Below, piece after piece: positions 27,276-35,648 of a stretch of 64,000 nucleotides of DNA; position 1 is the stretch's first letter; the number at the start of each line of letters is the position of its first letter. A program made the position numbers and the translations under genes. The notes below the pieces were generated by a model. It saw nothing but the letters and a program-made list of their open reading frames with translations. It was not told the origin of the DNA and made no database searches. This DNA comes from Bolinopsis microptera (taxonomy: Eukaryota > Ctenophora > Tentaculata > Lobata > Bolinopsidae). The stretch is taken from positions 186,001 through 250,000 of the forward strand of contig NC_087079.1 in the NCBI RefSeq assembly GCF_026151205.1, read 5' to 3'.

Positions 27276-28877
27276 TTAGTATCGTATTATTCTGGCAAAA
27301 TATTTAAGTGTATCCAATAAGTCTCTAATTGGATGATACTCTGATAAGTTATCATACTGAAAATAATGTGCAGCAAATAATATCACAGCGCAATAAACTC
27401 TTGCTCTTGACATCTCTAGGTAAAGAGAAAATATTCCTTCCTTATCATTAAGATCGTGTACCACAATAACTGCGGGGTACTCTACTGAATAACAGCTGTC
27501 GACATCAAACAACTCTATAGTTTTATCTGATATTCTCTCCATAGTCTTTATAATTGTCTTTTCGAGACTATCATAATAGCTGTCCACTATTATACCAATT
27601 TTAAAACCACTCGACAAACCAGAGATACATAATTTATCCAACTCCATATGCAAAATTTTCTCAATCAAACTGAAATCGTTCTTTTCCATCTTCTTTTCAA
27701 CAACATGTATACTGGTGCGTGGCCCATGTATGAAATGGCCCGGTTTCATTATTGGTAAAACATTGTCTATATTGTCTGCAGTCTCCTCCCCAGGAACTGA
27801 TAATATCAACTGATCTCTTAGCTTTGATAAAATACCAGCTATATCAGTGGTATTTCTCAGATTCATAGACAAGGTTACAATATTTTCAGAAGGCATATCT
27901 TGTATGAATTTGTGCACTGCTTTATTTCCAACTTTTAAATGACACAAATGTGTTCTCTGTGTGAGATCACAAGCAATCCAGGCCAGGTTTGTCCCTGCTA
28001 TTTTGGTACAGCTGTCTGCTATAAACTCAGCAGCCATGTCATCAAGATACAAATTAGCCTGACAATCGTCTATAAACACGTGGGTGTCTGTTCCTATCAG
28101 GCAGCCAAGAGCATTTTCAAAGTCTGAATTATCAAATACAATCTCCATTTTCACTATTACTACTTGGTTTTTCTCTCTGCTGTCTACTATTTTCTGTACT
28201 TTCATGTCTGCACTCTCCGATGAAAGTTCTTTCACCTCTAACACATCGTTGCTAATATTAGCTTTCTGAAAGATATCTTGAAAAAGTTGATGGTGTTTGT
28301 CGCTTATAGAGAAATAGAACAATACCACCTTGTTTTTGGGATTAGATCGTATCAATGTTATGATCTTAGCCAACAGAATGATAGTTTTCCCTGAACCTGC
28401 TGGCCCATTTAGTACCATCAGGTTCTGATCCCTTTTGAAGGCATCGTGCTGTTCTACTGTCAAGTTCTCTACACCTATAATATCTTTGAAGATGTTGGTA
28501 TCCTGATCTATATTTGCATCTTTTATATCGGTAACTTTCATCACATTTGGATTTGGAAGACGTTTTTTGCTAAGAAATGTTATCCCCCCTTTCCTTAACT
28601 CCTCATCAATGTCAATTATACATTTCTGCAAACTACAATTCCTTCCTTCACATTGGTTTATATCAGTACACCACATGGCTACCAGTACTTCTTTTACCAC
28701 AGCGTGTTTTAAGATAACATCTTCAGTTGCATCGCTAGATACAATACTTGTTACATTTGCAATCCACCACCTATTGAAATCGAGTAAGTCTTCTTCACAT
28801 AATATTCTTGTTTTTTGCGCTTCATTCAAGTCCTGGAATTGGCCACGATTTGTGCTGGGAAACGCGGAGAAAGTAAG
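27276..28877 (-). CDS. SF1 helicase part of an LTR-interrupted NERD-helicase gene
   Basis: This is the C-terminal three quarters (533 codons plus stop) of a gene whose first part is at 35648-35094. Counting residues from the TTG codon at 28829, the motifs are in superfamily 1 order: Q-type LTVEQHDAF (123-131), Walker A GPAGSGKT (142-149), Walker B VFIDDCQ (251-257), WIACDLTQ (motif III type), LSMNLRN (motif IV type), SVEYPAVIVV (motif V type) and YLEMSRARVYCAVI (motif VI). No intron or internal stop is seen. The frame is open from 28877, the first base after the LTR element and its target duplicate, so TTG 28829 is not a natural start. Fused NERD-helicase proteins are known mainly in bacteria and some animals and are presumed to act on nucleic acids; the exact substrate is unknown. 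With the insertion present the ancestral protein cannot be made unless the element is spliced out. Confidence 0.88.
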   Translation of the reverse strand, partial: LTFSAFPSTNRGQFQDLNEAQKTRILCEEDLLDFNRWWIANVTSIVSSDATEDVILKHAVVKEVLVAMWCTDINQCEGRNCSLQKCIIDIDEELRKGGITFLSKKRLPNPNVMKVTDIKDANIDQDTNIFKDIIGVENLTVEQHDAFKRDQNLMVLNGPAGSGKTIILLAKIITLIRSNPKNKVVLFYFSISDKHHQLFQDIFQKANISNDVLEVKELSSESADMKVQKIVDSREKNQVVIVKMEIVFDNSDFENALGCLIGTDTHVFIDDCQANLYLDDMAAEFIADSCTKIAGTNLAWIACDLTQRTHLCHLKVGNKAVHKFIQDMPSENIVTLSMNLRNTTDIAGILSKLRDQLILSVPGEETADNIDNVLPIMKPGHFIHGPRTSIHVVEKKMEKNDFSLIEKILHMELDKLCISGLSSGFKIGIIVDSYYDSLEKTIIKTMERISDKTIELFDVDSCYSVEYPAVIVVHDLNDKEGIFSLYLEMSRARVYCAVILFAAHYFQYDNLSEYHPIRDLLDTLKYFARIIRY

Positions 28878-28881
28878 TATT

Positions 28882-29984
28882 TGTAAGCAGTCATCACTTG
28901 CTTCAGATTCGTAGATTATTTGTAGTAATTTAGGTTACGAACAACAAAAACGAAAGTAATAATTATGGTAAAAAAGGGTAAGAAACAAAATGATTAACAA
29001 TCCAATTACCACAAAATACACTTCCTAATTACTCTGACTTATAACGCCCTACATCTACTGTAAAACACACGTCCTTACTCTACCCTTACTTATCACCCTC
29101 GTTAACCGTCTCTAACGGAGTCTTACCCTTAAACTAAACTTACATAACACTGCACTTTTAGCCCTCGCTGACCGTCCTTATATCAGGCCCAAATCCACTA
29201 TAGTTCATTCTCGCTCTACCCGAGCCCGATTGTTGTTGACACGAACCCACTCGTGTTGGATTAACCCACGTGTTAACCCTGGCTACAACACAGCCTATTC
29301 CTGCTCTCCTGAGTTAACCAATGTTGACTCTCACTACGCTTAAGCCAGACTGCTCATGTACTCCGCACAGTTCCACTAACTACAGTCCACAATAATGCTC
29401 TCTCCAGGACCCTATCGTAACAGGTCCTGGCTCCAAAGTAACCTACATCAATGGCCCTCGATTCGGGCAAACTCCATCTCCCTTCTGACCTTTCCACCGG
29501 ACCTTATATAATGTCCTGTCCGTGGTTTTTCACCCGACCTCTCTAACCAGACTCACGTGCCCCTGCTCACACCTTTGGCAGCTGGTCTTATCTCCCACTA
29601 AAGCTTCATTGTCCCGAGTCCAGGTGTTACGACTATTCATCTTTTTACCAAAGCTTCCTGTCTGATGACCTCTGAATCCATAGTTTGTTTAGAACTCACA
29701 TCTATCTTTGACTCTCTATCTACACAAAGGCTTTACGTCTGAGTTCTCCTAGAACCATTGTCTCTCCTCCAGAGTGACATGTTTCTCGTCCGTCCAGGTG
29801 AGGTCCAACCCACAATCTCCATTGTATTCTCTTTCTCTAACTTTCCCTAACCACAGACCAGAACTGGATGTTCCACTTCCACTGCCTTATTACACAATAC
29901 TGCCTTATTACACAATACTTGCCTTATTACACAATACTATCTAAAATCTATCAAATAATATAGATCAAATAATCACGGCTTACA
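28882..29984 (-). repeat. LTR, 3' copy of the element
   Basis: 1,103 bp bounded by TGTAAGC and GCTTACA. On the minus strand a TATATAAGG-type TATA box lies at about 29503-29511. Three short tandem units of 'ctgccttattacacaata' lie near 29880-29940. Confidence 0.93.
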
Positions 29985-33988: not shown

Positions 33989-33990
33989 TT

Positions 33991-35093
33991 TGTAAGCAGT
34001 CATCACTTGCTTCAGATTCGTAGATTATTTGTAGTAATTTAGGTTACGAACAACAAAAACGAAAGTAATAATTATGGTAAAAAAGGGTAAGAAACAAAAT
34101 GATTAACAATCCAATTACCACAAAATACACTTCCTAATTACTCTGACTTATAACGCCCTACATCTACTGTAAAACACACGTCCTTACTCTACCCTTACTT
34201 ATCACCCTCGTTAACCGTCTCTAACGGAGTCTTACCCTTAAACTAAACTTACATAACACTGCACTTTTAGCCCTCGCTGACCGTCCTTATATCAGGCCCA
34301 AATCCACTATAGTTCATTCTCGCTCTACCCGAGCCCGATTGTTGTTGACACGAACCCACTCGTGTTGGATTAACCCACGTGTTAACCCTGGCTACAACAC
34401 AGCCTATTCCTGCTCTCCTGAGTTAACCAATGTTGACTCTCACTACGCTTAAGCCAGACTGCTCATGTACTCCGCACAGTTCCACTAACTACAGTCCACA
34501 ATAATGCTCTCTCCAGGACCCTATCGTAACAGGTCCTGGCTCCAAAGTAACCTACATCAATGGCCCTCGATTCGGGCAAACTCCATCTCCCTTCTGACCT
34601 TTCCACCGGACCTTATATAATGTCCTGTCCGTGGTTTTTCACCCGACCTCTCTAACCAGACTCACGTGCCCCTGCTCACACCTTTGGCAGCTGGTCTTAT
34701 CTCCCACTAAAGCTTCATTGTCCCGAGTCCAGGTGTTACGACTATTCATCTTTTTACCAAAGCTTCCTGTCTGATGACCTCTGAATCCATAGTTTGTTTA
34801 GAACTCACATCTATCTTTGACTCTCTATCTACACAAAGGCTTTACGTCTGAGTTCTCCTAGAACCATTGTCTCTCCTCCAGAGTGACATGTTTCTCGTCC
34901 GTCCAGGTGAGGTCCAACCCACAATCTCCATTGTATTCTCTTTCTATAACTTTCCCTAACCACAGACCAGAACTGGATGTTCCACTTCCACTGCCTTATT
35001 ACACAATACTGCCTTATTACACAATACTTGCCTTATTACACAATACTATCTAAAATCTATCAAATAATATAGATCAAATAATCACGGCTTACA
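33991..35093 (-). repeat. LTR, 5' copy of the element
   Basis: 1,103 bp, the same length and boundaries as 28882-29984, with one observed substitution. It abuts the NERD exon. Confidence 0.93.
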
Positions 35094-35648
35094 TATTTTG
35101 CACTGTTCTTTGCTTACTCCATCAACCACTTGGTCCACAAGACCCTTTACCAAACACTCTGTTCTCTCTCGTTGTTTAAGTGAGTTTTTAAATGTTCCCT
35201 GTAGCTCCTTCCTCTTCTCTTCCGTTACTCCTCCAGTTGTTTGGGGGATGTTTTTCACCTCAATAATCACAACATAGTTCTTGCCGACAACTACAAAGTC
35301 GCATTCCGATTTATCAGATGCTTTTCCTTTGCATTTACCACAGCTTCTTCTGTCATGGGTTTTATCGCACAGTCGATACTGATGATGGGTGTACTCAAAC
35401 CCATGGAGAACTGTGACCCCCTCCGGCAACTCCTCCAAAACACGATACACTCTAACTTCAGCCTCGTAGTTTACCTGGAGACGCTTTTCTCCCTCAAACT
35501 GACTGCTCGATCCAACTTCTTCGTCTCGGTAGACATCTATGTATGTCTGTTTGGGCGCAGGAGGCAACATTATCGCTTTATCTTTGAATGTGCAGTGCTT
35601 CTCAATTATTTCTTTTCCTTTTACTTTGTAGTCCTCAATTGTGTTCAT
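35094..35648 (-). CDS. NERD nuclease part of the interrupted NERD-helicase gene
   Basis: The first 185 codons of the gene. ATG 35648 is preferred: the sequence just before it, tttgttttcag at 35651 and above, looks like a 3' splice site, so a 5'-leader intron is likely, and the in-frame TTG at 35660 would lie inside it. From the ATG, a NERD fold is visible: conserved E in YEAEVRVYRVL (E64), D in SECDFVVVG (D117), then E130 and K132 in VVIIEVKN, the D...ExK restriction-like active site. Between these lies a Cys/His cluster (C94, H98, C103, C106) that could bind zinc. The ORF as it stands runs three codons into the LTR. Removing the element and one TATT copy joins codon 185 to 28877 in frame, giving 718 residues in all. 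Confidence 0.87.

Follow-up and report, generated by a model that had tools for sequence, protein, structure and literature searches.

A young, apparently non-autonomous LTR retrotransposon within the coding sequence of a NERD-helicase gene of the ctenophore Bolinopsis microptera

When a transposable element lies in the middle of a gene whose two halves both remain open, has a gene just been broken, or does the element sit in an intron, on one haplotype only, or in a faulty assembly? This question is raised by a stretch of 64,000 nucleotides of the ctenophore Bolinopsis microptera (RefSeq assembly GCF_026151205.1, contig NC_087079.1, positions 186,001 to 250,000 of the forward strand, or C8:186001-250000 in the coordinates used here), which we will call the window. 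A long terminal repeat (LTR) element interrupts there a gene that encodes a NERD nuclease domain followed by a superfamily 1 (SF1) type helicase region. All genome comparisons were made within the window's own assembly (264.65 Mb in 232 contigs, at least 97.5% of which is carried by 13 large scaffolds), and labels such as L001 or L055 designate stretches fetched from it. Judging from the sequence, we give a probability of about 0.85 to the reading in which a young non-autonomous LTR retrotransposon has inserted in the coding sequence of this gene, with the uninterrupted twin of the gene, found in the same assembly, more probably the other haplotype than a paralog.

The architecture of the element can be read directly in the window. 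Its two LTRs, both on the minus strand, occupy 33991-35093 (5' LTR) and 28882-29984 (3' LTR); each is 1,103 bp long, and they are identical at 1102 of 1103 positions, the sole mismatch being at 29837/34946. They start with TGTAAGC and end with GCTTACA (the TG..CA type), and the element is bordered by exact copies of a 4-bp target-site duplication (TSD), TATT, at 28878-28881 and 35094-35097. A primer-binding site (PBS) of 18 nt, TGGCGCGAACGGTAGGAT, lies on the minus strand at 33971-33988, 2 bases from the 33991-35093 LTR, and therefore the sense of the element is that of the gene. This site, which is also kept in the family copies, is complementary to the 3' end of tRNA-Ser(AGA) plus CCA. In the genome, 55 occurrences of a 15-base part of its complement were counted, and none of the reversed control. 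Of five that were fetched, three correspond to 3' ends of tRNA-Ser(AGA) genes; the other two do not, and one of them adjoins another LTR-like end. We thus consider tRNA-Ser(AGA) as the putative primer of the element. Ahead of the LTR, where a polypurine tract is expected, GATCATATTTTGTAAAGTTG recurs in the family copies, and it is not a clean run of purines. The interior (29985-33990, minus strand, 4,006 bp) holds several tandem-repeat arrays, in particular a 51-bp repeat in 7 copies (31136-31498) and a 39/40-bp repeat in about 24 copies (31783-32716). Its longest open reading frame (ORF) has 185 amino acids, short of the gag-pol capacity of an autonomous LTR retrotransposon, and no Pfam match was found in the 3 ORFs scanned among the 7 interior ones of at least 100 amino acids; from this lack of a long ORF and of a Pfam match in the ORFs scanned, the element looks non-autonomous.

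The host gene lies on the minus strand, on both sides of the element. Its 5' part (35094-35648, 185 codons) carries the NERD domain, in a frame that is open up to 35663, and its 3' part (27276-28877, 533 codons and a stop) is an open frame that holds the helicase region, the motifs of which were aligned with 21 paralogs. When the element and one TATT are removed, the frame runs from the ATG at 35648 to 35094 and resumes in frame at 28877 to reach the stop at 27276-27278, for 185 + 533 = 718 codons without any internal stop, whereas with the element in place it stops 3 residues inside the LTR. The first-pass annotation, which had described 1,103-bp LTRs with one difference, exact TATT duplicates and an open frame restored by removal of the element, is borne out on each of these points. 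It had also described a NERD nuclease followed by all SF1 helicase motifs, and here motif II calls for a correction. The N-terminal half matches Pfam NERD (PF08378) with 34.9-35.0 bits for a cut-off of 22.1 and contains an ECD/ESD..EVK stretch common to the paralogs. In the C-terminal half, the positions of motifs I to VI are recognisable, but motif II reads DD. The usual SF1 motif II is DE. Pfam places ResIII and NPHP3_N barely above their cut-offs in this half, with UvrD and DEAD below theirs (weak P-loop matches). A PDB sequence search with the helicase half gave no convincing relative (best E-value 0.005, over a partial match), and neither half came near any cut-off in NCBIfam. Upstream of the gene, a 53-bp tandem duplication is present in 2.2 copies (36243-36359).

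The age of the insertion can be considered with the help of the twin copy. The stretch 24573-52104 of the window has an inverted counterpart at C8:378399-345196 that is devoid of the LTR element, the two having been matched in pieces, so that not every intervening base was compared. In this counterpart, the twin gene (L055, C8:373800-376900) is uninterrupted at the target, where a single TATT is found. Its coding sequence shows 11 differences in 2,145 aligned positions with the window copy; read in the frame of the latter, 2 are synonymous and 9 nonsynonymous, these 9 falling in 8 codons. The twin's own frame is broken by two deletions, of 1 and 11 nt, although the 1-nt one is of a kind that uncorrected long-read errors could imitate. 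At codons 330 and 345 it is the window copy that has retained the residue of its three closest intact relatives, and at codon 333 it is the twin; the other five differing codons are uninformative. Over the region, the two copies differ at 62 of 8,553 aligned bases (0.72%) and the two LTRs at 1 of 1,103 (0.09%). Because the LTRs are so much less divergent than the copies, the sequence comparison establishes that the element arrived after the two copies had separated; indeed, the probability of at most one LTR difference accumulating since that split, at equal rates, is 0.003. If substitution rates between 1e-9 and 1e-8 per site and year are assumed, one LTR difference corresponds to about 45,000 to 450,000 years; the Poisson interval around that single difference is wide. 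The annotation was right about the mechanism and the youth of the insertion, but it had drawn this youth from a host frame that had not decayed, and here it overstated its case: only about 1 substitution is expected in 2.2 kb at 0.09% divergence, so the intact frame says little.

The element has relatives throughout the genome. The assembly holds 65 matches to the LTR, including the two of the window, many of which are partial. Together with the uninterrupted copy of the same site, these place the insertion pattern beyond chance. In 8 putative LTR pairs, the one in the window included, divergence ranges from 0 to 0.36% and is zero for four of them, two of the 8 being compared over about 650 bp only. 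Six pairs are flanked by exact 4-bp TSDs of their own (TATT, ATAG, CAAA, GAAT, AAAG and TTTG), as is one solo LTR (AATC). Two loci, L023 and L035, on C5 and C12, share 1,500 bp of element interior at 100% identity, pointing to a very recent transposition of the family. By these comparisons, the window element is an ordinary member of what appears to be a young and recently active LTR family. It shares with elements of the LARD (large retrotransposon derivative) and TRIM (terminal-repeat retrotransposon in miniature) kinds its paired LTRs, the TG..CA ends, the 4-bp TSD, the PBS, the multiple dispersed copies and, as examined in the window copy, an interior without a long ORF; it differs from them by the abundance of tandem repeats in this interior and by its tRNA-Ser(AGA) primer. 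With an LTR of 1.1 kb and an interior of 4.0 kb, its size is between those of TRIMs and classical plant LARDs.

The course of events that we propose is the following. An element of this recently active family, primed by tRNA-Ser(AGA) and presumably copied with the enzymes of another element, integrated with duplication of 4 bp of target, and the coding sequence that it entered is that of a NERD-SF1 helicase gene made of a single exon. Translation from the host ATG would then end 3 residues into the LTR and yield a NERD fragment of 188 residues, lacking the end of the domain and the whole helicase.

Several alternatives bear on whether the gene is really interrupted. The insertion point is flanked by a donor (GGA/GTAAGC) and an acceptor (TTCCAG/GA) that delimit a 69-nt, phase-0 stretch, so that the element could sit in a small intron, be spliced out and leave the gene undisturbed. 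The in-frame position of both sites, the length in a multiple of three and the absence of a stop all fit with this. The answer came from the paralogs: we sampled 28 of the 91 NERD loci of the assembly, 8 as automatic best matches and 20 picked by hand in the upper part of the NERD list, mostly with long open frames, and aligned the 21 whose stop-to-stop ORF has at least 690 codons. Left aside, with shorter or truncated ORFs, were L002, L004, L006, L007, L008 and L043, and the twin L055 entered the alignment in two separate pieces; L001, L003 and L005, among the 21, end at the edge of the fetched stretch. All 21 translate across the junction without an intron, and their residues can be aligned on either side of it; the junction reads mostly xFTxYPN, and xSAFPS or xSAFPN in the nearest three. 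Since all these frames cross the junction, the insertion is in coding sequence, and a pre-existing 69-nt intron, ruled out by this reading through, is the least likely of the alternatives that we considered. The GTAAGC and TTCCAG sites may nevertheless be used as cryptic splice sites after the insertion. The gene could also have been split rather than killed, into a NERD-only ORF under the old promoter and a helicase-only ORF driven from the 3' LTR. This LTR does point into the helicase half, the element and the gene have the same sense, and an open frame of 552 codons crosses from the LTR into the gene and has Met codons before motif I. But after so short a time the frames would be open even without selection, and we deem such a split very unlikely. 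It would be slightly more improbable still that the insertion is an artefact, a repeat placed into the gene by the assembly. The region is indeed assembled as two near-identical copies, long-read assemblies do fail at repeats, and the single LTR difference could be a polishing error; however, the exact 4-bp duplication is single at the empty site, the order of LTR and PBS is correct, and the full element stands between unique flanks in one contig without any N.

The weightier alternative concerns the twin, which could be a paralog. A recent segmental duplication within the chromosome, in inverted orientation, would have given rise to it; the LTR element would then have entered one copy, and the two deletions would have affected the other. 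In that case the insertion may be fixed. Its inverted orientation, at about 150 kb gene to gene on one scaffold, argues for such a duplication, as do the tandem clusters by which this gene family shows that it duplicates locally, and the 9 nonsynonymous to 2 synonymous differences are those expected after redundancy. But unrelated parts of the window also have near-identical counterparts, on another large scaffold or 0.85 Mb away. Five non-repeat places of the window were probed (1.0-5.0, 27.3-28.9, 40.4-44.4, 49.4-53.4 and 53.6-57.6 kb), and all five have a further counterpart at 96-99%, matched piecewise and situated at C8:1.223-1.231 Mb, C8:345-378 kb or C11:18.02 Mb. For the 49.4-53.4 kb probe the match is confined to the first 2.7 kb, and those at 40.4-44.4 and 53.6-57.6 kb also hold dispersed repeats that are found in many further places. 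A short probe at 53.5-53.9 kb likewise points to C11. Neither of the two control probes taken elsewhere has a near-identical counterpart: a NERD locus on C3 has paralogs of at most 93%, besides a 221-bp edge repeat and short flank pieces, and a flank at C8:13.8 Mb has repeat-sized matches only. The partner also switches at a scaffold gap. This contrast between five of five window probes and none of two controls looks like the pattern that a diploid assembly may give when alternative haplotypes remain among its scaffolds, and it favours them over a segmental duplication. We therefore regard the empty-site copy at C8:374 kb as probably the other haplotype, and the paralog as a serious but less likely candidate, with something like a minority share of our belief. 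If the twin is the other haplotype, the sequenced animal would be heterozygous for the insertion and its second allele frame-shifted. The polymorphism proposed by the annotation is accordingly plausible, given a 99% copy with an empty site in the assembly, but it is unproven, a segmental duplication being an alternative.

Some features of the same region describe how the counterparts are laid out. The homology to the sister region ends where a repeat of about 4 kb lies (20602-24570), copies of which occur on many scaffolds, one at C4:2.25 Mb with 91% identity. A probe at 20.6-24.6 kb, which falls in this dispersed repeat, is uninformative on allele or paralog. Somewhere between 5 and 24.6 kb of the window, the counterpart shifts from C8:1.22 Mb to C8:0.38 Mb, and the contig may be chimeric or rearranged there. 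A scaffold gap of 100 Ns lies at 53428-53527, across which the partner changes from C8 to C11:18.02 Mb, and another gap of 100 Ns is found 269 bp ahead of the C11 counterpart. The published B. microptera assembly has 97.23% of its bases in 13 chromosome-scale scaffolds, for a k-mer size of about 254 Mb, and was treated with Purge Haplotigs (PMC10232365); another account gives 4.7% of duplicated BUSCOs for the species (PMC11797021).

Taken against our reading of a coding insertion with an allelic twin, several points have to be counted. The counterparts are not collinear with one intact locus, as they are 0.85 Mb apart for parts of the window 20 kb apart; the C8 homology stops 1.3 kb short of the gap and not at the gap itself; real duplications or rearrangements could give the same pattern; and the controls are few (n=2 probes). 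The aligned paralogs were selected for their long open frames, and the Pfam NERD scores do not discriminate between exon and intron: the joined version has 34.1 bits, the spliced one 33.8 and those with four shuffled tails 34.0-34.4, the match ending before the junction in all of them. Finally, 2 of the 8 LTR pairs (C4:2.27 Mb and C10:17.16 Mb) have no TSD and a damaged outer LTR end.

The gene itself belongs to a large family. The assembly has 91 places that match NERD, the window and the twin included, although alleles or fragments may have been counted apart in this number; by our count, 52 of them lie in single open frames of at least 690 codons, and 2 have a stop inside the NERD match. 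NERD ORFs are clustered at C13:8.01-8.06 Mb, C2:0.16-0.45 Mb and C11:0.58-0.65 Mb, and others are dispersed on large scaffolds. The annotation had seen a natural knockout of an unusual gene, and this uniqueness was overstated, with 91 such places and a near-identical copy that is broken as well. Motif II is DD, not DE, in all 21 aligned paralogs as in the window copy, and motif VI is found in 18 of them, the remaining 3 loci being cut before it. Pfam NERD is above its cut-off in the 10 paralogs scanned out of 10, along with several P-loop families, most of them below their cut-offs. The ratio of nonsynonymous to synonymous divergence (dN/dS) ranges from 0.35 to 1.11 in 12 chosen pairs of paralogs and is at 0.97-1.11 in 3 of them; such values near 1 despite open frames are suggestive of fast evolution, in ORFs that were chosen for being open. 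Between the window helicase half and its nearest intact relatives, dN/dS is 0.36-0.41 with dS above 1, and for the NERD half it is 0.11 in one comparison (dS 2.4), the other two giving no value. With dS from above 1 to 2.4 and two comparisons valueless, synonymous sites are near or at saturation between the window copy and these relatives.

How does this family relate to known systems? Outside its own genome, searches for close relatives of the helicase half found none in viral contigs, phages and prokaryote genomes, nor did those for the NERD half and the LTR end in viral contigs. We scanned four paralogs and the two window halves with PADLOC. The paralog L041 matches RTasNERD-Hel (1.1e-7) and Nhi (2.3e-5), and the window helicase half matches the NERD+UvrD candidate C3a187 (3.3e-6), all weakly and with partial coverage of the models; the other three paralogs match GajB or mad8 models only, and the window NERD half gives a weak HEC-02B match only. 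The prokaryotic NERD-helicase defence proteins share with our gene the union of a NERD nuclease domain and an SF1-type helicase in one chain, whereas here the genome is that of an animal, with 91 NERD places, and motif II reads DD in the copies aligned. Birth-and-death families of the immune type offer another possible likeness: local clusters, dispersed copies, broken members and a dN/dS of 0.35-1.11 between recent copies. It is a tentative and rather doubtful possibility that we have here a large, intronless, fast-diversifying family of NERD-helicases which, as part of this same joint reading, would be related to the bacterial nuclease-helicase defence proteins. Transposons and frameshifts would have produced in it null alleles that have not stopped segregating, and one diploid individual would thereby display an innate defence repertoire that varies by presence and absence. 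In the library searched, NERD with ctenophore, with metazoa or with helicase and invertebrate gave no match, which cannot show that the family is undescribed.

The rest of the window holds a few other coding features. On the plus strand, from 1172 to about 11800, exon-like stretches, one ORF of which was scanned with no Pfam match, have motifs that we take to be those of an ABCC-type transporter. On the minus strand, two reverse-transcriptase-like coding stretches (12636-14531 and 61273-62973), without a Pfam reverse-transcriptase match, are presumably of the Penelope type from their look.

As an event, the insertion described here is ordinary; what is unusual is its documentation within one assembly, which holds the filled site, the empty site and, through the LTRs and the flanks, a relative age for the insertion. 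It offers a ready PCR marker with which its segregation can be examined, and it may be heterozygous in the sequenced animal. Through it, an animal gene family comes into view, with 91 NERD-matching places, fast-evolving members and broken copies.

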